From assembly GCF_005490985.1 (NCBI RefSeq), contig NZ_CP027869.1, forward strand, positions 3,467,992 to 3,531,991: DNA of 64,000 nucleotides, read 5' to 3'. The notes beneath the pieces were generated by a model that saw only the letters and a program-made list of their open reading frames with translations, was not told where the DNA came from and did not search any database. The position numbers were made by a program, and so were the translations under genes. Shown here in pieces: positions 33,594 to 45,027 of this stretch (position 1 is its first letter; the number at the start of each line of letters is the position of its first letter). Origin of the DNA: Curtobacterium sp. SGAir0471. GTDB taxonomy: Bacteria; Actinomycetota; Actinomycetes; Actinomycetales; Microbacteriaceae.

Positions 33594-36500
33594 TCAGCCG
33601 ACCAGCGCCCCGGTCCCGGCCCCGGTCCCCGCCAGCGTCCCGCGCGGGACCATCGGCACCTGCAGCGTCGACGCCAGCCCGGTCCCCAGGTGCACGAGCG
33701 CCGACCCGGGCTCGATCCGTGTGGAGATCGACGACCGCGCGATGCGCACCCCGATCAGGTCCCCGGCCAGGGTGTCCTGCGGCGACAGCAGCGCCCCGCG
33801 CCGGTTCTTCTTGGCGTCGACCTGCCAGCCGCCGAACCCGGCCGCGAGCCCCGTGGTGTTCCCTCCGAGCAGCATCCCCTGCCCGTTGTCCACCGCGGCG
33901 CGACCCCAGTCGCGCAGCCACCGCGCCGCCGAGCAGTCGATGAGCAGCTCACCGTCGTCCACGACGAGCACGAGGGGAGTGCCGTCGGGTGCGAGCACGG
34001 GTTCGAGCTGCTCCTGCGTGACGTCGTCCCCGCTGAACACCGCACGCACGCCGGGCAACCCCTCGAGGTCCCGCACGGGCCCCGGCCGCGGCGCGAGGAC
34101 GACGAGCGACGTGCCGCCGGCCAGCAGCGACCGCGCCATGGCAGCGAGCATGGTGGACCGACCGGACCGAGACGGTCCGGCGACCACGAAGGTGCCGCCC
34201 CCCGTGCGCAGGTCGACGGTCTGCAGCTCCATGTCGTCCCCGCCGATCCCGGTGATCGCGACCATCGGGGCGGGTTCGGGAGCGGACTCCAGGGCGAGTG
34301 CGGTGTCGAGGTCCAGGTCCTTCGGCATCGCGTCCACGCGGAACGGGCGCGGCGACGGCGGGACCGGTGCGGCCGCTCGGAGCTCCGCGGCGAGGTCACG
34401 CACCGCGGTGGTCTGCCCCTGCCCGGACACGTCGGTGCCGAGCGTCGCGAAGTGCACCTCGGTGCCCGAGTCGGCGCGGAACCCCCGCCCCGGCGGGATG
34501 GACGCGGGCAGCTTCCGGTGGTTGATGCCGCCGAGCGAGTAGTCGAGCCGGTCGGTCAGCCGCAGCACGACCTTGTCGTCGGTGAGCGTCGACATGCGCG
34601 ACGACAGCAACGACCGGTCACCGGACACCACGACGTGGATCCCGGCTGCTGCGCCGTCGCGCAGCAGCGACTGCACGGCGTCGGTCAGCGCCCCGCCGTC
34701 GACCTCGCCGAGCGAGGTGGTGAAGTTCTCCCACCGGTCGATGAGCACGAGCACGTGCGGCAGTCGCTGGCCCGGCGCCGCGAGCAGGCGCTGCTCGGTG
34801 ACGTCCGCTGCGGACGCCGCGGCGATCAGGTCGTGCCGCCGGGCGGTCTCCCGTGTCAACCGGTCGATCAGGCGCGTGGCGCGTTCGACCTGCGTCCGCT
34901 GCACCACGGCACCGCAGTGCGGCAGCTGCTGGAGCGATGCGAGGGCACCGTTGCCGCAGTCGATCGCGTACACGTGCAGGTCGGCGGACGACAGGGACCG
35001 CGCCGCGGACGCGGCCAGGGTGCGGAGCGCCGTCGACCGACCCGACCCCGGCGCGCCGACGACGAACTGGTGCGTGAAGCGGGCGAGGTCGACCTCGGCT
35101 GCGCGCTGCTCCTGGGTGTCCGGCAGGTCCTCGAGCCCGACGGCGAAGCGCAGCGACTCCACGGACGACGACGAGGAAGACGACGGAGACGAAGACGGGG
35201 ACGACGACGACCCGACCGCGGCCGACGCGACCTGCGCGAGCGGCAGCAGCTCCGGCAGCGGCGGCAGCCACGGGCTGTGCACCCGTCCGATGCCGAGCCG
35301 GTCGCGGGCGTCACCCATCGCCTGCACCAGGACCGAGAGGTCCGTGGCGGCGGTCGCCTGGTCGCTGCGCGACGGTCGCGCGGGCGGTGCGGTGGCGAAG
35401 TCGCGCCACTCGAGCACCCGGACGAACGGGAGGCCCGTGGCCGGGTCCTCCTCGCCGGCCCACCGACCGCCGACCCGCGCCGACTGGAAGGGCACGACCG
35501 ACGAGTGACCGAGGCGCGCGTACGCGCGCCCCGGCACGCTCTTCGGGATCCGCGCGGCATCGGCCACGTCGATGACGTCGGTGCTCTCCCCGGAGTCGGT
35601 CATCCGCAGCGCGACGCGCAGGTTCGTGTTCGCCCGGATGTCCGGCCCAACGACACCGCCGGGGCGCTGGGTGGCCAGGATCAGGTGCACCCCGAGCGAG
35701 CGACCGCGCTGCGCGATGCCGATGAGCCCGGTGACGAAGTCGGGCAGCTCGGTGACCATCGCCGCGAACTCGTCGATGACGAGCACGAGCCGTGGCATCG
35801 CCTCGCCGGCACCGCCGCGGGCGAGGTGCGCCTCGTGGTCCTCGATGTCCTTCGCACCCGAGGCAGCGAGGATGTGCTCACGCCGGGTGAGCTCGGCGCG
35901 CAGCGACCGGAGCGCCCGCTCGACCAGGTGCTGGTCGAGGTCGGTGACGAGCCCGACCGTGTGCGGCAGGTCCGACGCCACGCTGAAGGCCGCACCGCCC
36001 TTGTAGTCGACGAGCACGAACGTCATCCGGTCCGGGCGGTTCCGCAGCGCGAGCGACGCGACGAGGGTCTGCAGGAACTCGGACTTGCCGGACCCGGTGG
36101 TGCCGGCGACCAGGCCGTGCGGACCGTCCTTGACCAGGTCGAGCTCGAAGGCGCCGTCGATCCCCACGCCCACGACCGCTGCCGTGCTCGTGCCCGACGC
36201 CGCCCAGCGTTCGGCGACGGTCCGGCCGTCTGGCTGCGGCAGGTCGACCACGTCGAGCAGTCGGGCGGCGTCCGGCACCAGGCCGTCCCCGTCGGACCCG
36301 CTCGTGTCACGCAACGGCGAGGTCCCGCGGGCGACGTCGTCGTACCAGTCGTCCGCGACCCGGTCCGCGAGCACGAGCTCGACGGGCGCGGACAGCTGCC
36401 GGCGGAGCACGAGCTCGGTGGCGCTGCGGTGCGTGACGGTGGCGACGCACTCCTCGGGCAGCTGCCACTCCTCCTCGTCGATGCAGACCAGGCGGATGCC

Positions 36501-38054
36501 GCACGCGGGCCCGTCCCGGAGCAGTCCGACGACGCCGGGCATCGCGCGGAGCCGTCTGGCGCCGTCGAGCACCACGACGATCTCGGGCGAGAACCGGCTC
36601 CGGTGCGTCCCGTTCTTCTGCCGCTCCGCCCGGCGCTCGGCGAGCACCTGGGTGAGCTCGGCCAGGCGCCGGCCGATCGTCTCGCCGTCGGCGCCGATGA
36701 GCGCCAGCGCCTCCTGCCCACCGGTCGGACGCAGGTGCGGCAGCCAGAGCGTCCAGGTCCACGCCGGGACGTGCTGCTGCGCCGTGAGCACGACGAACTG
36801 CACCTCGCGCGGGCTCTGCGTGACGGCGAGCTGGCCGAGCACCCAGCGTCCGAGGTCGCGCGGGGTGTCACCGGCGCCGGCGATGCCGAGCACCCCGACC
36901 TCGGCGAGCGGGACCGTCACGGGCACGCCGCGGGTGACGCGGGGCGCGTGGGCGAGTCCGTCGAGGTCGCGGTCGTCGACCACGGTGACGGTCGACGGCA
37001 GGTCGCCCGTGCCGATCCGCACGTGCAGGTGGTCACCGTCGGACGGTCGGCGCTCCCAGAGCCGCCGACCCGGGGTGGTCGCGACCACCCGCAGCGAGGC
37101 GGCGTCGAGCGCGGACGTCCGCCGCTGGTCGCGCTGGTCGAGCACCGCCTGGTCGATCGCCGCCTCGAGCGCGGCGACCCGTTCGCGGTGCTCGGCGAGC
37201 TGCTTCCGGTGGCTCTTCTTCCCCGTGCGCCGCGCACTGATCGTCTGCCCGATCACCATCATCGGCGTCATCGCCGCGAAGAGCAGGTAGAACGGCGAGC
37301 GGAACACGGTCGCCATCACGATGCCGAACATCGCCGGGACGAACACCATGATCCACGGGATCGCGGACCGCTGCGGTGGCACCGGCGGCTTCGGGATCCG
37401 GAAGTCCGTCTGCAGGAACGGCGGGAGCAGCCGCGGCGGCCGGTTGAAGTCGAGCTGCCCGGAGTCCGGCGGACGGAGCAGCATGCGGTCGACGACCTCG
37501 ACCGGCGCGACGCTCAGCACCGTGTCGCCGAGGCGCACGAGGGCGTGTGCCGGCCAGTCCGTCCACTCAGCCGCGATCGGCTCGCCCTCGAGGGTGGGCG
37601 CGGGACGGTCCGTGGGACGCTCGCCGTCGTCCTCGGGCGGGGTGAGCCGGACCGTCACCGACCCGTCGAACGCGGTGCGGGCCTCCAGACCGGGACCGTC
37701 GGCGGCCGCACCGACCGCGGCCGCACCGTCCTCGGCGAGGGCGATGCGGACCGTGCCCGGCGACAGCCGTCGGACGCGACCCGCGTCGACCCCGCCCACG
37801 ACGAGCAGGTGCACGGTGCCGTGCTCGGGCTGCGGCCGCTCGGTACCGCCGACGTGCAGGACGGCGCCGTCGACCAGCCCGCTGCGCGCGAACGGCACGT
37901 CGCCGTCGGGGGCGCCGTCCGGGACGGGCCGCCCGCCGGTCCGTCGGACCAGGGCGTCGACGACGGTCCGCATCGGCGTCTGTCCGGCGGCGTCGACGAG
38001 GACGTCGGAGTGCTCACCGGTCGCGTCGTCGACGACCGTGACGACGACGCGCAT
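33594..38054 (-). CDS. EccC/EssC-type FtsK/SpoIIIE triple-ATPase of a type VII secretion-like system
   Basis: The 1,486-residue protein has two N-terminal membrane helices (about residues 228-270) after a soluble FHA-like or ubiquitin-like N-domain. Three RecA/FtsK-like domains follow: Walker A GTTGSGKSE (about 655, intact, with LVLVIDEFA Walker B), GAPGSGRST (about 1003, Walker B VLVLIDRWE) and GPSRSGRST (about 1296, with LVLVVDDGE). Domains 2 and 3 retain Lys-less Walker motifs (SGR), typical of regulatory or substrate-binding ATPase sites in T7SS. A poly-Ser linker lies near residues 947-967. The start is ATG 38052-38054, sharing one base with the previous stop. Confidence 0.9.
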   Translation of the reverse strand: MRVVVTVVDDATGEHSDVLVDAAGQTPMRTVVDALVRRTGGRPVPDGAPDGDVPFARSGLVDGAVLHVGGTERPQPEHGTVHLLVVGGVDAGRVRRLSPGTVRIALAEDGAAAVGAAADGPGLEARTAFDGSVTVRLTPPEDDGERPTDRPAPTLEGEPIAAEWTDWPAHALVRLGDTVLSVAPVEVVDRMLLRPPDSGQLDFNRPPRLLPPFLQTDFRIPKPPVPPQRSAIPWIMVFVPAMFGIVMATVFRSPFYLLFAAMTPMMVIGQTISARRTGKKSHRKQLAEHRERVAALEAAIDQAVLDQRDQRRTSALDAASLRVVATTPGRRLWERRPSDGDHLHVRIGTGDLPSTVTVVDDRDLDGLAHAPRVTRGVPVTVPLAEVGVLGIAGAGDTPRDLGRWVLGQLAVTQSPREVQFVVLTAQQHVPAWTWTLWLPHLRPTGGQEALALIGADGETIGRRLAELTQVLAERRAERQKNGTHRSRFSPEIVVVLDGARRLRAMPGVVGLLRDGPACGIRLVCIDEEEWQLPEECVATVTHRSATELVLRRQLSAPVELVLADRVADDWYDDVARGTSPLRDTSGSDGDGLVPDAARLLDVVDLPQPDGRTVAERWAASGTSTAAVVGVGIDGAFELDLVKDGPHGLVAGTTGSGKSEFLQTLVASLALRNRPDRMTFVLVDYKGGAAFSVASDLPHTVGLVTDLDQHLVERALRSLRAELTRREHILAASGAKDIEDHEAHLARGGAGEAMPRLVLVIDEFAAMVTELPDFVTGLIGIAQRGRSLGVHLILATQRPGGVVGPDIRANTNLRVALRMTDSGESTDVIDVADAARIPKSVPGRAYARLGHSSVVPFQSARVGGRWAGEEDPATGLPFVRVLEWRDFATAPPARPSRSDQATAATDLSVLVQAMGDARDRLGIGRVHSPWLPPLPELLPLAQVASAAVGSSSSPSSSPSSSSSSSVESLRFAVGLEDLPDTQEQRAAEVDLARFTHQFVVGAPGSGRSTALRTLAASAARSLSSADLHVYAIDCGNGALASLQQLPHCGAVVQRTQVERATRLIDRLTRETARRHDLIAAASAADVTEQRLLAAPGQRLPHVLVLIDRWENFTTSLGEVDGGALTDAVQSLLRDGAAAGIHVVVSGDRSLLSSRMSTLTDDKVVLRLTDRLDYSLGGINHRKLPASIPPGRGFRADSGTEVHFATLGTDVSGQGQTTAVRDLAAELRAAAPVPPSPRPFRVDAMPKDLDLDTALALESAPEPAPMVAITGIGGDDMELQTVDLRTGGGTFVVAGPSRSGRSTMLAAMARSLLAGGTSLVVLAPRPGPVRDLEGLPGVRAVFSGDDVTQEQLEPVLAPDGTPLVLVVDDGELLIDCSAARWLRDWGRAAVDNGQGMLLGGNTTGLAAGFGGWQVDAKKNRRGALLSPQDTLAGDLIGVRIARSSISTRIEPGSALVHLGTGLASTLQVPMVPRGTLAGTGAGTGALVG

Positions 38055-38974
38055 CAGGCCTGTTCCCGCGCGTCGGCCGGGACCTGACCGTCCACCGGCG
38101 CAGCCGGGTCCACCGGGACCGAGCGACCGAGGGCCGCCCACTGCAGCGTGCCGAGCTCGTCGGACACGTGGGTGCCGTCCCGCCGCACCGCGATCGTCCA
38201 GCGTGTGAGCGGGTCCGGGGCGGCCGCGATGCACGCCCAGCGGCCGCCCGGCCGCTCGAGCAGACGGGCGAGCTCGCGTCCGTCCGCGCCGGCCGGCACC
38301 CGGGACACGACCAGGAGGCCCGGGGTCGCGTCCGCCGTGACCGCCGCGATCGCCTCGTGCACCGTCACGGCCGTGCCCACCCCGACCGGCGACCCCACCT
38401 CGAGCACGGTGGTGCCGGCCGCCCACGGGGCGGCCGTGAACTGTTCGACGACGCGGACGAGCAGCGCCGCACGGGCGGCGCCCTCCCCGCGCAGGGCCAC
38501 GATCCCGCGCACCCGACGCAGGTCGACCACGACCGTCTCGTCCTCTCGGGTGCCGACCGGTACGGCCGTCGCGAACTCGACCGGGGCCCCGCCGACGAGC
38601 GGGACCGCCTGCAGCGCCCACATCGGCGCCGACCACGTCCGACCGTCCGGCGTGGCCGTCCACGGCGCCGGCGGCGCGATCGTCGGCGACGCGACGTCGA
38701 TCCGCACGGTGTGGCCGATCGTGATCCGCACCGCGCCGGGGAACAGCACGCCCGCCCCGGCGCACGAGGCCTCGATCCCCCGGAGCACCCGGTCGACGGC
38801 CCAGGCCGCGGCCGGGTCCCGGCGCACCTGGTCGGCCCAGACCAGTGCGTCGGTCGAGGTGCGGCGGCGGAGCGCGACGATCGTGGGCACCACGACGGCG
38901 AGGGCGCCGAGGAGCACGACGACCGACATGGTCAGCAGCAGGTGCGACTCCGGCGTCAGGAACGACCAGGTCAC
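38054..38974 (-). CDS. Unidentified T7SS-locus protein with one N-terminal membrane helix
   Basis: This 306-residue protein is not recognised. It starts VTWSFLTPESHLLLTMSVVVL, with one clear membrane helix (about residues 12-34) followed by a basic flank and a soluble domain of about 260 residues. Its GTG start overlaps the previous stop (GTGA, 38971-38974) and its stop touches the EccC start, so it is translated with the ATPase. A membrane-anchored partner analogous to EccE is plausible but there is no motif support. Confidence 0.7.
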   Translation of the reverse strand: MTWSFLTPESHLLLTMSVVVLLGALAVVVPTIVALRRRTSTDALVWADQVRRDPAAAWAVDRVLRGIEASCAGAGVLFPGAVRITIGHTVRIDVASPTIAPPAPWTATPDGRTWSAPMWALQAVPLVGGAPVEFATAVPVGTREDETVVVDLRRVRGIVALRGEGAARAALLVRVVEQFTAAPWAAGTTVLEVGSPVGVGTAVTVHEAIAAVTADATPGLLVVSRVPAGADGRELARLLERPGGRWACIAAAPDPLTRWTIAVRRDGTHVSDELGTLQWAALGRSVPVDPAAPVDGQVPADAREQA

Positions 38975-39699
38975 GAACGGGCCTCGGCGATCTCGGCGAT
39001 CCGACGCTCGAGCGGGGTCGGCTCGGTGCCGGGGACGTCCGTCCAGCGGAAGGTGGTCATCACGGCGTCGAAGAGCATCACGAGCGCGTCCGTCAGCTGC
39101 TCGGCGGCCTCGGGGTCCTCCGGGTCGCTGGGGCTGATCGCCGAGAACGACATGATCACCCACCGACCCGGTCGGTGCGGGACGGGGATCGAGTACGTCA
39201 CCTGTCGGTCGTCCACCACGGGCAGGTCCGCGCCGACCTCCGGGAGCTCGGCGGCGACGTCCGCGCGCCGGACCGTCTGCTCGGTGCGCGCCGCGATGCC
39301 GCCGTCGACCTCGCGCAGCCCGGTGTCGTCCGGATCGCGCCGGGTGGGCAGCGCTTCGGCGAGCAGCTGCGCGACCACCTGCTCGGGCGCTTCCTCGGAC
39401 TCGTCGTCCACCTCGGACTCGATGATCGACACCGGCGGGGTGTACCCGTCGACGGGCTGGACCGGCATGTGGACGGCGGTGGCGCCGTTGTCCCCGGCCT
39501 CGACCACCGCGCGCAGGAGGCGCTTCCGCATCTCCTGCCGCAGCGGCTCGGCGCGGTCCCGTGGCAGGTCGTCCGGCAGCGCCCGCGCGATCACGGTGCG
39601 GACGGTCTCGCCGAGCTCCTCGCGTTGGTCCTCGCCGGCGGGCAGACGGGCCCACCCCGGCGGGACGACGACCAGGAACGACGCGGTCGGAGTGGTCAT
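38971..39699 (-). CDS. Unidentified soluble T7SS-locus protein
   Basis: The 242-residue protein has no membrane helix or signal peptide and an acidic middle (EVDDESEEAPEQVVAQLLAE). It starts MTTPTASFLVVVPPGWARLP and overlaps genes on both sides by 4 nt. No motif identifies it. The strict coupling with the EccC-type ATPase points to a secretion-related role such as a chaperone or cytosolic scaffold, which is inference from position. Confidence 0.65.
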   Translation of the reverse strand: MTTPTASFLVVVPPGWARLPAGEDQREELGETVRTVIARALPDDLPRDRAEPLRQEMRKRLLRAVVEAGDNGATAVHMPVQPVDGYTPPVSIIESEVDDESEEAPEQVVAQLLAEALPTRRDPDDTGLREVDGGIAARTEQTVRRADVAAELPEVGADLPVVDDRQVTYSIPVPHRPGRWVIMSFSAISPSDPEDPEAAEQLTDALVMLFDAVMTTFRWTDVPGTEPTPLERRIAEIAEARS

Positions 39700-40289
39700 G
39701 CGTGCACCTCGTTCTCGACGGTGGCCAGCAGGTCGACGACGAGCGGCGCGAACACCGGGACCAGCCCGAGGTCCGTCGTCCGCCAGAGCACGTGCGTGTC
39801 GACGCCGTCAGCCCGACGGACGGCGGTGACCGACGCCCAGATCGCCCCGTCGTCGTCGAGGTCGTAGCGGGTGACGACGGGCCCCTCGCCACCCACGTGG
39901 TCCGGGAGCTCGTCGACCGAGGGCGGCTCGACCGGCAGACCACCGGTCGCGCCGGCCAGGTCGAGCAGGTCCGCGGTGCCGCCCTCGGCGAGCCCGACGG
40001 TGACCACCACGGGGAGCGGCCAGTTCCCCGGCACCGCGAGCGAGGCGAGCAGACGCTGCCCGGACCCGAGACCCGCGCGGAAGGCCAGCAGCGTGTCGAG
40101 CGCCGCGACGGTGTCGAGCTCGGTGACCGCCGACCCTCCCGAGCGAGCACGGTCGAGCCCGACGACCGCGTCGAACAGCTCGAGGGTCTCTGCACGCCAG
40201 GCGGTGTCGACCTCGTCGGGGTGCGGGACGAGCAGCCACGAGGCGTCGGTCGTGATGCTCGACGTCACCGTGGGGGTCGCAGTCGTCAT
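39696..40289 (-). CDS. Unidentified soluble T7SS-locus protein
   Basis: The 197-residue protein is acidic and soluble with no recognised motif. It has a GAGGAG ribosome-binding site and overlaps the next gene by 4 nt (ATGA). It is the first of three partner genes between the T7SS-type cassette and the EccC ATPase, all co-directional and overlapping. A function cannot be assigned. Confidence 0.65.
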   Translation of the reverse strand: MTTATPTVTSSITTDASWLLVPHPDEVDTAWRAETLELFDAVVGLDRARSGGSAVTELDTVAALDTLLAFRAGLGSGQRLLASLAVPGNWPLPVVVTVGLAEGGTADLLDLAGATGGLPVEPPSVDELPDHVGGEGPVVTRYDLDDDGAIWASVTAVRRADGVDTHVLWRTTDLGLVPVFAPLVVDLLATVENEVHA

Positions 40290-40326
40290 GGTGCTCCTCG
40301 GTTCTCGTTCCGGTCCGGCGATCGGG

Positions 40327-41901
40327 TCAGCGCTGGGCTGCGGGCACGGTCGGCAGGTCGGTGACGGGGTGCTTGTGCTCCGAGACCCACTCGGTCCACG
40401 GCCGCTCCTGGTCGGCACCGATGCCGATCGGGCCGATGACCAGGCCGGCGATCGCGTTGCCCTTGCCCCACGCGCTCATGAACCCGTTCGCACCGACGTG
40501 GTACCACGGGGCCGCGGTGACGCCGGACCGCAGTCGGTTCAGCTTCTCGAAGTCACTCAAGCGGTCCCGGGTGAACTGGAAGTCGACGCCACCCAAACGC
40601 TCGCCCCAGTCCTTGAGTCCGCCGCGGGTGCCGACCTCGGTCCAGAACTGCTTCTTGACGAGCTTCGCGTCGTTCGCGATCACCTTGTGGATCTTCGCGA
40701 CGTTCCACCAGTTCGGGTTGTCGGCGAACTTCGCCGCGAACGACGCCTCGGTTCCGATCCACTCCACATCGACGGCGTCGCGACGACCTCGAGCCCGTTC
40801 CAGTGCCCTCGTCGCCTTGCTGATCTGTGCCTGCAGCCCGTCGAGCTGCTTCGTGATCGTCTGCGCCTGCGCCGACGACACGGGCCGGTCGAGGCGCTTG
40901 TCGAGCTTCGAGAAGTCCCGCTTCAGCGCCTGCAGCTCGTCCTTCCGCACACCGACCGCCTTGTGCGCGGCCTTGCTCGCGGACGAGAACTTCGTGGTCA
41001 TGGCGCCCTTGGTGGCCTTGATGCCGTTGCTCACCGCGGTCGAGGTGACCTTCGTGATCGCGGTGCCGAGACCGAGCGTCAGCACGCCGACGACCGCCAT
41101 GACGAGGTCGAAGACGTTGCCCTCGCCCATCGCGAAGGTCGCCGCCTGCGCGATCAACGTCATCCCCGCCGAGATCGCGCCGAGGATGGCACCGATGCCG
41201 AGGCCAGGGATCAGGAAGGCGAACACGGCCAGGACGATCCCGATGATGGTCAGGATCTTGATGAGCATGTGGATGAACTTGTACCACCCGGAGTCGTGCA
41301 GCCCGTCGTGCCAGCCGTCCCGCATGGTGCTCGCGGCCGCCCGGCCGGCGGCGCTGAGCTGTTCGCGGGCGTCCTGCAGCTTCCGCTTGGCCGCCGCGAC
41401 GGCATCCTCTGCGCTCGAGATCCGGTCCGCGCGCTTCTGACTGTCGGCGGTGTCCTCCGGCGTCGGCTCCTTCCCGCCGGCCTCCGCATCGGCGACGGGA
41501 TCGGCGAGTCCCTGGGCCGACCCGAGGTCGCCCTTCGCGGCGATCGCGTCCTGCAGCGCCTGCCACGAGGTCCCCATCACGGTCCCGGCCCCGCGGGCAC
41601 TCTCGTCGCCGACCGCTGCGGCGAAGCCCTGCAGAGCCTCGCCCGCCGACCGGTACCGACCGGTCATCTGCTGCAGGGATCCGGCGACGTCCTTCGCCCG
41701 CTTGCGGACGGCGTCGACGGCCTCGCCCTTGCCGACGGACTCGTCGCCGCTGCCGACCTTCTCGAGCGTCGCGGCGGTGGTCTCCATCGACTCCGCCATG
41801 TCCCGGTAGTACGCCGCGAGTTCGAGCACCTTCGCCGGCTGCGTCGCGATCGGGTCACCCGGCTCGTCGAGGGCGGCCCAGTCACCTGCGCGGGCGGTCA
41901 T
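40327..41901 (-). CDS. T7SS-type protein with WXG-like N-domain and three membrane helices (paralog of 42844-44283)
   Basis: The 524-residue protein has an N-terminal helical region with GDWAALDEPGDPIATQPAKV, the GDP-containing start typical of T7SS-secreted signal domains, and VGKGEAVDAVRKRAKDVAGS as a WXG-like helical hairpin. Three hydrophobic segments lie at about 215-290, then a C-terminal domain ending IGIGADQERPWTEW. The 479-residue paralog at 42844-44283 has the same plan and the same GADQER motif. It is preceded by a short partner gene, which it overlaps by one base (TGATG). Whether it is secreted or a membrane component is open. Confidence 0.8.
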   Translation of the reverse strand: MTARAGDWAALDEPGDPIATQPAKVLELAAYYRDMAESMETTAATLEKVGSGDESVGKGEAVDAVRKRAKDVAGSLQQMTGRYRSAGEALQGFAAAVGDESARGAGTVMGTSWQALQDAIAAKGDLGSAQGLADPVADAEAGGKEPTPEDTADSQKRADRISSAEDAVAAAKRKLQDAREQLSAAGRAAASTMRDGWHDGLHDSGWYKFIHMLIKILTIIGIVLAVFAFLIPGLGIGAILGAISAGMTLIAQAATFAMGEGNVFDLVMAVVGVLTLGLGTAITKVTSTAVSNGIKATKGAMTTKFSSASKAAHKAVGVRKDELQALKRDFSKLDKRLDRPVSSAQAQTITKQLDGLQAQISKATRALERARGRRDAVDVEWIGTEASFAAKFADNPNWWNVAKIHKVIANDAKLVKKQFWTEVGTRGGLKDWGERLGGVDFQFTRDRLSDFEKLNRLRSGVTAAPWYHVGANGFMSAWGKGNAIAGLVIGPIGIGADQERPWTEWVSEHKHPVTDLPTVPAAQR

Positions 41902-42194
41902 CAGGCGGACTCCTCGTGCGACTGCAGGCCGTCGGTCAGCTGCTGCTGCAGGTCGCGCCACGTGTCGACCGAGTTCTGCAGGTTCTTGTCGAGCTTGTCG
42001 ACGTTCTTGCGGATCTTCTCGCGGTGGAGCTTCCAGTCCTTGCTGAAGTGCGAGAAGGCGTCCTGCAGGTGGGACTCGCCGAAGACGCCGTGGTACTGGT
42101 CGTCGTCGGACTTCTGGTGTTCGAGCTCGTCGTTGATGGCGTGCACCTTCGCGGCGCTGTCGCTGAGCTCCTGGCTGATCACGAGATCGGACAC
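41901..42194 (-). CDS. Small WXG100-like helical protein of cassette 2
   Basis: The 97-residue protein is predicted all-helical, with shared segments ELEHQKSDD and DWKLHREKI also present in the 106-residue paralog at 44283-44603. It lies between an Esx protein and the membrane-type T7SS protein, the usual place for a WXG100-family partner. It may form a complex with the Esx protein or the downstream substrate. No Trp-x-Gly is present in the turn region. Confidence 0.72.
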   Translation of the reverse strand: MSDLVISQELSDSAAKVHAINDELEHQKSDDDQYHGVFGESHLQDAFSHFSKDWKLHREKIRKNVDKLDKNLQNSVDTWRDLQQQLTDGLQSHEESA

Positions 42195-42227
42195 GGGTAC
42201 CTCCGAGGGGACGGGTCGGGAACGGAT

Positions 42228-42272
42228 CGCGCCCCGGCCGACGTCGCTGACGGCAGCGTCGACCGGGGCGCG
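42228..42272. terminator. Hairpin directly after the second esx gene
   Basis: A 16-bp stem with one mismatch joins CGCGCCCCGGCCGACG (42228-42243) and CGTCGACCGGGGCGCG (42257-42272), with a further small stem inside the loop. It lies just past the esx stop at 42280 on the minus strand and before the next gene at 42194, so it could reduce read-through. Confidence 0.65.
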
Positions 42273-42279
42273 GAGCGCG

Positions 42280-42573
42280 CTACTTGATGGCGTTGGCGAG
42301 TTCCTGGTCGGTCTGCTGCAGCGCCTCGGCCGCCTTGTTCAGGTACATCGACATGCCCTCGAGACCCTCGATGGTCTTCGTGGCACCGTCGTTGAACTCC
42401 TGGTACGAGCTCCCGAACGCGACCGAGGACTGGTCCGTCACGTAGCCGCCGCTGATCAGCGAGTCCACGAGCGCCTTCAGCTCCCGCAGCTTCGAGGTGA
42501 TGTCCTGCTCACCGTTCACGAGTCGGGTCGCGGCGTCCTGCATCTCGCCGTAGGTCACGTTCAAGTTGGGCAT
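42280..42573 (-). CDS. WXG100-like Esx protein, copy 2 (identical to copy 1)
   Basis: The 97-residue protein is helical with a hinge SGGYVTDQSS (about residues 41-50) in place of Trp-x-Gly and a C-terminal Tyr/Phe-containing helix, so it belongs to the WXG100 superfamily of T7SS substrates. It is identical in sequence to the product of 44734-45027. AGGAGC precedes the ATG. A strong hairpin follows the stop. It is expected to be an exported dimer recognised by the EccC-type ATPase. Confidence 0.85.
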   Translation of the reverse strand: MPNLNVTYGEMQDAATRLVNGEQDITSKLRELKALVDSLISGGYVTDQSSVAFGSSYQEFNDGATKTIEGLEGMSMYLNKAAEALQQTDQELANAIK

Positions 42574-42795
42574 GGCCTGCTCCTGTCGTTCGTCGCGCCC
42601 CCCGGTCGAGGGACACCGGGAACGTTATTCCAGGGCGGAACGATCTCGGGGGGTACATTTCTCGACCCGGTCGACCCGGAGGTCTGCACAGTGATGTGCA
42701 CATTCCAGTACATCGGCGTCCCGACGGGCTCGGTACCGAGCGGTATTCACATGCCACAGTGGCCAAGACCACCGCGGTCATCGGCGTGTCGCGGT

Positions 42796-42840
42796 GCGCC
42801 GATCGGACCGGTGTCCCCCGGAGTGCGGACCGATCGGCGC
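42796..42840. terminator. Hairpin after the first T7SS membrane-type gene
   Basis: GCGCCGATCGG (42796-42806) pairs with CCGATCGGCGC (42830-42840), 11 bp with a 23-nt interior. It lies just past the stop at 42844 on the minus strand. The rest of the 270-bp gap 42574-42843 has no gene and probably carries the promoter of esx copy 2. Confidence 0.65.
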
Positions 42841-42843
42841 GGC

Positions 42844-44283
42844 TCAGGCGGTGGTGAGGGCGCCCGAGACGGCCTCGTACCCGGGCACGCGTTCCTGGTC
42901 GGCACCCCAGCCCGTCGGCTTGATCCCCTGGCCGTACACGAAGGTGTTGACCCAGCTCGTGACCACGCGTCCGCCGGCCGCCCAGGTGTGCCACGTCGGC
43001 GACGCCGCGATCTGCACGCCGTACTTCGCCCACAGCTCCTTCTGCATCTTCGTCATCTCGAACTGCCGGTCGACACTGAACAGGCGCTCCCACTGCCAGC
43101 CCTTGCCGTCCTTCCCGAAGACGTCGAGCACCTTCGCCTTGTCCTCGTTCCAGAGCGCCCGGTTCGGCCGCCACCAGTTCGGCTTCTCCTTGAAGCCGTC
43201 GAGGACGTTCTTCGTCCTCGCAGCCGCGAAGGTCTCCTTCACCGTCGCGATCTGCTTGCTGAGGTCCTGCACCTCGGTCCGCGCCGCGGAGTACTCGCTC
43301 GCCGTCCGGGCGCCGAGCGCCTTCGTGATCTGCACGGAACGCAGGTCCTGCAGGTTCCGGATCTTGTCCAGCGACGTCTTCTGGAACCCGGCGAACCCCT
43401 TCGCGAGCCCCGCCGTCTTGAGCGTCGAGACCGCCTTGGTCAACGCGCCGCCGACACCGACGAGCACCAGGCCGACCGCCGAGGTGATCACGTCGAGCCA
43501 CGAGCCCTCGCCCATGCTCGCGAGCGCGATGTTCGCGACGAGGGTCACCGACGCCGCCACGGCCGCCATGAAGGTCAGGATCCCCACGCCGGGGATCAGG
43601 ATGGCGAGCGCGGCCAGGGCGATGCCGATGTACGTGAAGATCTTGACCAGGATCTTGAGCAGCTTCGAGAAGAACGCCTTGATCTTGTCACCGAGGGTGT
43701 CGTGCAGGCCGTCGTCCCATGCGGCGCGGATCGTCGACGCAGCCTGACGGCCGGCACCGTTCAGGGTGTCGACGGCCCGTCGGAGCTTCGCGGTCGCCGC
43801 ATCCGCTCCTGCCCGTGCGTCCTCGGTCGCCCGGTGCTTCGCGTCGACGGCCCCCTGCTCGTCCGCGGTCAGGGGCGGCGCGTCCTGCGCCCGTCCCTGC
43901 GACGGGTCCACCATGCTCGCGGCGCGCGACCCCGCTGCCGACGCGTCCTCGGCCTCGCGCAGCGCTGCGGCAGACTCGTCGAGTGCGGTCTCGAGCGACG
44001 GCAGGTACCCGGTCAGCGCGTCGCGGATCGCGTCGTAGCGGCCGGACATCTTCTGCAGCGAGGCGGCGACCTCGCCGCTCTTCTTCCGCACGGCAGCGGC
44101 GGACTCGCCCTTGAACTGCGACTCGTCGCCCTCGCCGATCCGCTTCAGGACGTCCGCCTCGCTGCGGATCTCGTCCGCGATGGAGCGGTAGTAGTCGACC
44201 AGCTCGCGGACGACCTGCGTGTCCGCGACGATCGGGTCCGAGGCCTCGCCGACGAGCGACCAGTTCCCTCCGCGGGCGGGCAT
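42844..44283 (-). CDS. T7SS-type protein with WXG-like N-domain and three membrane helices (paralog of 40327-41901)
   Basis: The 479-residue protein mirrors the 524-residue paralog: an N-terminal helical domain with EASDPIVADTQVV and GESAAAVRKKSGEVAASLQK, three hydrophobic segments near residues 212-290 and a C-terminal domain ending TGWGADQERVPGYE. The alignable C-terminus shows conserved KPNWW. Toxin-type activity is not evident: no HNH, ADP-ribosylating or nuclease motif is visible and no immunity-type gene follows, so a conserved secretion component is equally possible. It shares one base with the previous stop. Confidence 0.8.
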   Translation of the reverse strand: MPARGGNWSLVGEASDPIVADTQVVRELVDYYRSIADEIRSEADVLKRIGEGDESQFKGESAAAVRKKSGEVAASLQKMSGRYDAIRDALTGYLPSLETALDESAAALREAEDASAAGSRAASMVDPSQGRAQDAPPLTADEQGAVDAKHRATEDARAGADAATAKLRRAVDTLNGAGRQAASTIRAAWDDGLHDTLGDKIKAFFSKLLKILVKIFTYIGIALAALAILIPGVGILTFMAAVAASVTLVANIALASMGEGSWLDVITSAVGLVLVGVGGALTKAVSTLKTAGLAKGFAGFQKTSLDKIRNLQDLRSVQITKALGARTASEYSAARTEVQDLSKQIATVKETFAAARTKNVLDGFKEKPNWWRPNRALWNEDKAKVLDVFGKDGKGWQWERLFSVDRQFEMTKMQKELWAKYGVQIAASPTWHTWAAGGRVVTSWVNTFVYGQGIKPTGWGADQERVPGYEAVSGALTTA

Positions 44284-44603
44284 CAGGCGGCCGTCCCGTC
44301 GGTGTGACCCGTGTCGGTGCGCTCGGTCGTGAGCTTCTCCGCCAGGTCGTGCTCGAGCGCCGACCAGTTCTCGACCGACTTCTGCATCTTGTCGTGCAGG
44401 TCCTTCACGGCGCCCGTCATCTTCTCGCGGTGGATCTTCCAGTCGCCGGAGAAGTCGTGCATCGCCCGCTGCACGTCGTGCTGGCCGTAGACCTCGGTCA
44501 GGGCACGGTCGTCGGACTTCTGGTGCTCCAGCTCGTCCGAGATGTGCCGGAGCTTCGTGGCCGAGTCCTCGAGGACGGCCTTGGTGATGATGAGGTCTGC
44601 CAT
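44283..44603 (-). CDS. Small WXG100-like helical protein of cassette 1
   Basis: The 106-residue all-helical protein shares SDELEHQKSDD and DWKIHREKM with the 97-residue paralog at 41901-42194, and extends at its C-terminus with a Thr-rich tail. It precedes its own membrane-type partner gene by a one-base stop-start overlap. The pairing repeats in both cassettes, so the two genes probably form a functional unit. Confidence 0.72.
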   Translation of the reverse strand: MADLIITKAVLEDSATKLRHISDELEHQKSDDRALTEVYGQHDVQRAMHDFSGDWKIHREKMTGAVKDLHDKMQKSVENWSALEHDLAEKLTTERTDTGHTDGTAA

Positions 44604-44665
44604 GGGTGCTCCCGATCGCTGCCCGTGCCGATGCGCCGCTGCGCTGGTGTGCCGGTGGAAGGTGG

Positions 44666-44694
44666 GACGGGCGGCCCGCAGTGGGCCGCCCGTC
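44666..44694. terminator. Hairpin directly after the first esx gene
   Basis: GACGGGCGGCCC (44666-44677) pairs perfectly with GGGCCGCCCGTC (44683-44694) around GCAGT. It lies 39 nt past the stop of esx copy 1 and upstream of the partner start at 44603. Together with the hairpin after esx copy 2, this indicates that esx is meant to be expressed above the rest of its cassette. Confidence 0.72.
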
Positions 44695-44733
44695 GTCCGG
44701 AGCGGTCGTGGACCGGCCGTCCGGTGTCGCGCG

Positions 44734-45027
44734 CTACTTGATGGCGTTGGCGAGTTCCTGGTCGGTCTGCTGCAGCGCCTCGGCCGCCTTGTTCAGGTAC
44801 ATCGACATGCCCTCGAGACCCTCGATGGTCTTCGTGGCACCGTCGTTGAACTCCTGGTACGAGCTCCCGAACGCGACCGAGGACTGGTCCGTCACGTAGC
44901 CGCCGCTGATCAGCGAGTCCACGAGCGCCTTCAGCTCCCGCAGCTTCGAGGTGATGTCCTGCTCACCGTTCACGAGTCGGGTCGCGGCGTCCTGCATCTC
45001 GCCGTAGGTGACGTTCAAGTTGGGCAT
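44734..45027 (-). CDS. WXG100-like Esx protein, copy 1
   Basis: The 97-residue protein is identical to copy 2 (42280-42573), with the same hinge SGGYVTDQSS. Across 294 bp of coding DNA I see a single difference, near the start (a third-position C/G at 45009 versus 42555). It has an AGGAGC site before ATG and a strong hairpin after its stop. It heads the whole T7SS-like locus on the minus strand, adjacent to the rplI terminator. Confidence 0.85.
   Translation of the reverse strand: MPNLNVTYGEMQDAATRLVNGEQDITSKLRELKALVDSLISGGYVTDQSSVAFGSSYQEFNDGATKTIEGLEGMSMYLNKAAEALQQTDQELANAIK

Follow-up and report, generated by a model that had tools for sequence, protein, structure and literature searches.

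A putative minimal type VII-like secretion locus with candidate effector chaperones in Curtobacterium sp. SGAir0471

Ten minus-strand genes located between rplI (45730-45278) and dnaB (33167-31803) of Curtobacterium sp. SGAir0471 are read here, with modest confidence, as a minimal type VII-like secretion locus, which would consist of an exporter ATPase with a fused ubiquitin-like domain, a bundle of Esx and small helical proteins, and effectors served by a pair of chaperones with a Mog1 fold. The window analysed comprises 64,000 nucleotides and represents the final 64 kb of a complete, single-contig genome of 3.53 Mb. Viewed from the rplI side, the gene order is Esx, H106, M479, Esx, H97, M524, U197, U242, U306, and ATPase, with H designating a helical partner of about 100 residues, M a membrane-bearing protein of about 500 residues, and U197, U242, and U306 proteins of 197, 242, and 306 residues, respectively. 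Overlaps of one or four bases exist between H and M, U197 and U242, U242 and U306, and U306 and the ATPase gene. The original prediction, made from the DNA sequence, had placed here one triple ATPase, three partner genes for proteins of 306, 242, and 197 residues, and two paralogous cassettes of an Esx gene followed by genes for proteins of about 100 and about 500 residues. All of these genes were found in place and with the expected sizes, and orthologous loci likewise have one or two cassettes (9/9).

The ATPase, its gene set, and candidate membrane partners

The ATPase (33594..38054, minus strand, 1486 residues) is composed of a ubiquitin-like domain (residues 1 to about 75), two membrane helices (about 229-280), and three FtsK-like domains with the Walker-A-like motifs GTTGSGKS, GAPGSGRS, and GPSRSGRS at positions 651, 1000, and 1293 of the protein; the longest open reading frame extends upstream past the ATG at 38054. 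Two hallmarks of type VII secretion systems (T7SS) are present, namely an FtsK/SpoIIIE-family ATPase with several RecA-like domains and two membrane helices, and a WXG100 gene beside it. In comparisons with Pfam and TIGR profiles, the protein scores below the cut-offs for EssC (TIGR03928; 565.6 bits, cut-off 778.4), EccCa (395 bits, cut-off 509), and EccCb (311 bits, cut-off 347), and its closest solved chain is YukB (9qks, 5e-82).

For the N-terminal domain, a profile was derived by aligning the first 75 or so residues of the ATPase with those of 20 EssC-like ATPases. Against the PDB, this family profile hits ubiquitin folds (redesigned ubiquitin, 3e-7; ISG15, 7e-4), and Pfam YukD is matched by two of the 21 members of the alignment (best 7.5e-4). 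As judged from these matches, a ubiquitin-like domain is fused to the ATPase in this family. The original prediction had missed this domain, which usually forms its own subunit or belongs to EccD. According to the excerpted text of one source, the mycobacterial ESX systems (T7SSa) and the Ess/Yuk systems of Bacillota (T7SSb) have nothing in common beyond a ubiquitin-fold domain and an ATPase of the FtsK type (PMC9600267); a single chain of the present family would therefore hold both. Visual comparison aligns the stretch following the ubiquitin-like domain to the FHA domains of related ATPases, and Pfam detects no FHA domain in the window protein.

An ATPase with at least 75% identity is encoded in 11 of 36 Curtobacterium genomes, the source genome included. 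The order of one or two Esx-H-M copies, U197, U242, U306, and ATPase is kept in all nine orthologous loci examined, eight of which adjoin rplI; the ninth (L052, genome G012) is located on a replicon of 163,762 bases and holds the ATPase, the partners, and one full cassette. The arrangement recurs in a genome from another family of the same order, where locus L104 runs from Esx, H, and M through U197 and U242 to two U306-type genes and an ATPase with 51% identity. Because the order is kept in the nine Curtobacterium loci and in L104, the gene set is not a chance assembly. A hypothetical protein of 242 residues with 76% identity is annotated on plasmid pTCL of Curtobacterium sp. TC1; the genome paper of this strain reported a WXG100 protein on pTCL and did not report T7SS genes (PMC8830320).

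The original prediction had seen no standard T7SS partner in the window. In genome-wide searches this holds for EccB, EccD, EssB, and YukD, to which the claim of absence is confined, no search having been made for EccE, EssA, and mycosin. EccB gave no match in the complete source genome, although its profile finds one in 61 of 197 genomes from the class, including one that belongs to the same family; nor did EccD, which is found above the cut-off in genomes G060, G052, and G241 and as a partial match below it in another Curtobacterium (G014; 24.8 bits, cut-off 95). EssB/YukC and stand-alone EsaB/YukD were likewise not matched in the source genome, with four positive controls including Bacillus subtilis for the former and a positive B. 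subtilis control for the latter. An EsaA-N match below the cut-off was rejected as evidence, being unspecific and present in nine of nine genomes tried.

The sole candidate for an additional membrane partner is the 306-residue protein (38054..38974, minus strand), which has one N-terminal transmembrane helix and, according to the predicted model, an inactive RecA/FtsK-like domain that has no Walker-A motif. Its profile gave nothing significant against the sequences of solved structures and a weak match to pieces of the ATPase (best E 2.5e-4, probability 43%, third ATPase domain, 290-470 stretch), so that the RecA/FtsK-like assignment is taken from the model only. Longer U306 relatives adjoin related ATPases in L104 and L105. 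LysM domains noted by eye in longer relatives were not confirmed by Pfam, which found F5/8 type C in one and BTAD above the cut-off in one. U306-type proteins of 624-1117 residues also end Tad-pilus-like gene clusters (L106, L107, L108, L110, L112), with an EssC-like ATPase in four and Esx in two of the five stretches; a BTAD domain is above the cut-off in one of these proteins and below it in one.

Effector-like proteins and the genes that accompany them

Both cassettes are located on the minus strand. Cassette 1 comprises Esx (44734..45027, 97 residues), the helical partner of 106 residues (44283..44603), and the effector-like protein of 479 residues (42844..44283); cassette 2 comprises Esx (42280..42573, 97 residues), the helical partner of 97 residues (41901..42194), and the effector-like protein of 524 residues (40327..41901). 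WXG100 is clear in both Esx genes (Pfam, E 3e-18 and 1e-17). They code for an identical protein and differ at one of 294 bases, the DNA identity of the H pair being 62% and that of the M pair 59%. The homogeneity of Esx looks as if it had arisen from gene conversion or strong selection. In two loci that belong to other genomes of the same family (L174, L179), the Esx copies are again identical and H and M are far apart; homogenised Esx in diverging cassettes therefore recurs. The 97-residue H protein resembles EspC and Lap proteins by size and position, and a Pfam scan of the H partners matched no Lap-type family.

The M proteins were predicted to carry a WXG-like N-terminal domain and three helices. 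The helices were recovered as three hydrophobic stretches in each protein, starting at residues 206-262; the N-terminal domain is weak in the 479-residue protein (WXG100, E 0.003; T7SS_signal, PF21725, E 0.018; both below the cut-offs), and in the 524-residue protein Pfam detects neither a WXG-like domain nor T7SS_signal, which is also without match at E<=1e-4 in the source genome. A profile built from related T7SS substrates recovers both proteins (6e-134 for the 479- and 6e-98 for the 524-residue protein); the profile includes both, and the match therefore shows only their mutual likeness. M-family members above the T7SS_signal cut-off occur elsewhere (L068, L081, L163, L181). In orthologous loci, first-cassette copies are 70-92% identical to M479 in three blocks over residues 1-290 and 36-52% identical over 291-400; the corresponding values are 62-75% and 23-26% for second-cassette copies and 31-42% and 23% for M524 of the window. 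Four proteins of about 1500 residues have an M-type N-terminal region and two hydrophobic helices; RHS repeats were found in all three that were scanned, of which one has an AHH nuclease domain that passes its cut-off and one a match to a Tse2-like ADP-ribosyltransferase that falls just short. No C-terminal domain was recognised by the Pfam scan of the window M proteins. Because their T7SS-substrate-like N-terminal region is shared with RHS toxins and their C-termini are variable, the M proteins look like effectors; they are probably not replacement membrane partners. Small multi-membrane proteins, possibly immunity proteins, adjoin effector genes in L148, L149, L152, L174, L177, and L179, and the window locus has no such multi-membrane neighbour gene and no obvious adjacent immunity gene.

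The 242-residue protein (38971..39699, minus strand) adopts a Mog1/PsbP fold in its predicted model, like Eag chaperones, and its profile gave nothing significant against the sequences of solved structures. The 197-residue protein (39696..40289, minus strand) belongs to a family that adjoins the 242-residue family and, as judged from profile comparisons, is homologous to it. The Curtobacterium clade of U197 alone does not match the 242-residue family; the match arises only with the wider neighbour family, for which 32 candidates were chosen by position and size, eight were excluded from the alignment because their cluster or FHA content assigned them to other families or because they lay too far away, and two neighbours and the window protein were then added. 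When the Curtobacterium clade is left out and the L104 member kept, the U197-family profile recovers the nine orthologs with filters off; with filters on, the window protein is not matched at E<=0.01.

Matches to the U242 profile occur in 38 of the 345 genomes from the class, and 40 neighbourhoods around such matches contain an M-type N-terminal region in 27 cases, an H-type gene in 29, an ATPase in 22, Esx in 19, and a U306-type gene in 6; 16 of the 18 neighbourhoods without ATPase have both M and H. Where M and U242 occur together (26 neighbourhoods), 28 of 35 U242-type genes are located at most two genes from M and on the same strand, shuffled positions giving a mean of 11.9 and a maximum of 23 in 5000. 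Loci sampled through the ATPase have both M and U242 in 20 of 38 cases, neither in 16, and M only in two (p 7e-9, a value that is too small because the genomes are related); the M-only loci are L017, whose M protein lacks membrane helices, and L069, which lies at a contig end.

A further sample was drawn through T7SS_signal, its matches being merged to 73 proteins, of which 38 were classified (23 without and 15 with membrane helices; the remaining 35 stand outside the counts); several of the helix-bearing effectors sampled through this domain only were examined in stretches of no more than 4.5-8 kb, and L212, L215, and L182 were judged from six-frame translation only. None of the 23 proteins without helices has a gene of the U242 or U197 family within four genes. 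Seven of the 15 helix-bearing proteins lie in loci first sampled through a U242-type gene, and their U242 share is therefore biased: six have such a gene within four genes and the seventh (L182) has one in the same stretch. Helices are borne by all seven T7SS_signal matches in U242-sampled neighbourhoods versus 8 of the 31 matches that were sampled through the domain only (p 5e-4). Among 18 RHS-size proteins of this sample, a U242-type gene accompanies four of six with helices and none of 12 without (p 0.005), with just 3 kb upstream examined for the other two of the six. The association leading from U242 to a membrane-bearing effector is strong; the reverse association is loose, many helix-bearing effectors being without U242.

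Interpretation, rival explanations, and known systems

We read U242 and U197 as effector chaperones. By analogy with Eag chaperones, which in the excerpted source stabilise N-terminal transmembrane domains of effectors of the type VI secretion system (T6SS) (PMC12881460), the pair would keep the hydrophobic substrate helices in solution within the cytoplasm. Esx and the helical partner might pair with the N-terminal region of M as a recognition and targeting bundle, and the ATPase, perhaps braced by the 306-residue membrane protein, would export the complex. The substrates would probably target the membranes of competing bacteria or remain attached to the surface. In an excerpted earlier source, a possible adaptor role was suggested for a PsbP/MOG1-like protein found next to T6SS toxins (PMC3482391). 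Nothing linking Eag chaperones with type VII secretion was found in the open-licence literature, nor was a PsbP/MOG1 protein placed in a T7SS locus found in the accessible portions of the open-licence literature on Mog1 and type VII secretion.

Several observations weigh against these assignments. Regarding the ATPase, the ubiquitin-like domain of EccD1 scores E 0.89 against the N-terminal profile, and the N-terminal domain of the window protein alone matches no family in a Pfam scan. The model of the 242-residue protein scores similarly with LpqN, PsbP, and the immunity proteins Tsi3 and TplEi, Mog1/PsbP folds serving many ends, and the sequence matches no Pfam family at E<=0.1, those of Eag included. 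A single U242/U197 pair is shared by two effectors in the window, and 12 of 68 U242-family genes have no M-type effector in the stretch examined. Since the genomes are related, the neighbourhood counts are not independent, and of the effectors with helices that were sampled through T7SS_signal, only one of eight has the pair, versus none of 23 without helices (p 0.26, not significant).

A rather doubtful alternative is that the 242- and 197-residue proteins neutralise the effectors as immunity proteins. The sharing of one pair by two effectors with divergent C-termini also speaks against this alternative, and in L148, L152, L174, L177, and L179 a separate multi-membrane protein beside the effector, present in addition to the pair, is the better candidate for immunity; moreover, effectors with T7SS_signal and without helices, which need immunity too, were never seen beside the family (0/23). 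It is very improbable that the M proteins are structural membrane partners that form a channel. They have three hydrophobic stretches and in orthologs always stand beside Esx and the helical partner, as such a role would have it; their C-termini are variable, however, the same N-terminal region is found on RHS toxins, and many copies stand apart from any ATPase gene (16 of the 18 neighbourhoods without ATPase). The proposal that these membrane-spanning paralogs replace the missing partners is not supported, their make-up being that of exported effectors, with a conserved N-terminus and membrane region followed by a variable C-terminus. The same proposal for the three U proteins is not favoured for the 242- and 197-residue proteins, which look like effector chaperones, and stands for the 306-residue protein as a candidate, though 11 of 20 loci of the same ATPase family have no U306. 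Also unlikely is a full machine with undetected partners, in which the 306-residue protein and an EsaA/YhgE-like protein encoded elsewhere complete a diverged T7SSb.

The chaperone reading can be set against known systems. Like T7SSb, the locus has an EssC-type single-chain ATPase, Esx, and helical partners with WXG/LXG-like effectors; unlike T7SSb, its genome has neither EssB nor stand-alone YukD (EssA was not searched), the ubiquitin-like domain is on the ATPase, and the ATPase is below the EssC cut-off. The actinobacterial host, WXG100, the triple FtsK-like ATPase, and a ubiquitin-like domain are shared with T7SSa, from which the locus differs in the lack of EccB and EccD (EccE and mycosin were not searched) and in having the ubiquitin-like domain on the ATPase and not on EccD. 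The Eag (DUF1795) chaperones that serve T6SS, such as SciW and EagT6, resemble the 242-residue protein in its modelled Mog1/PsbP-like fold and in the position of the gene beside effectors with hydrophobic helices, RHS toxins included; in contrast, the 242-residue protein has no Pfam match, occurs with T7SS effectors, and is accompanied by a second homologous protein. The Lap1/Lap2-LXG cassettes of T7SSb, as far as the excerpted source describes them (PMC9600955), similarly encode one or more small helical partners immediately ahead of a long effector whose N-terminal domain is helical, whereas Esx is part of each Curtobacterium cassette and the same in both, and no Lap-type Pfam match was obtained.

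Related loci and significance

The source genome codes for two further EssC-like ATPases, at about 3.14 and 1.18 Mb of contig C1, and the family-library scan covered part of the genes around them. In the former region (L016, C1:3133001-3153000), no Esx was detected, and a Ser/Thr-kinase-like gene, recognised by eye, and a protein of 904-929 residues are encoded. The latter (L017, C1:1172001-1192000) contains one Esx, a short substrate-like gene, two similar 162-residue proteins that are possible lipoproteins, and a 516-residue protein that is hydrolase-like by eye and has no Pfam match. An orphan protein of 581 residues (L018:5712-7732) has a weak WXG100 N-terminal region and an alpha/beta-hydrolase domain (PF06259, 6e-26), with a 92-residue partner upstream and no ATPase within the 14-kb stretch. 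EssC-like ATPases of 31-39% identity are found in Curtobacterium and other families (L072-L080, L082-L084); profiles detect no Esx, H, M, or U242 near them, and some of these loci have genes for proteins of about 90 residues that might be diverged WXG100 proteins.

With this gene set, an easily grown environmental genus offers an obvious candidate for a minimal T7SS, which bears on the question of how small a working T7SS can be, and the combination of T7SS-signal, transmembrane region, and Mog1 gene offers a handle for finding such effectors. More tentatively, the locus may represent a third, minimal actinobacterial T7SS, in which one polypeptide uniting ubiquitin-like domain and FtsK-type ATPase would be the sole indispensable membrane component and heteromeric Mog1-fold, Eag-like chaperones would serve helix-containing effectors. 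If this is true, an unrelated secretion system would have found the same answer as T6SS to the same problem, RHS toxins included.
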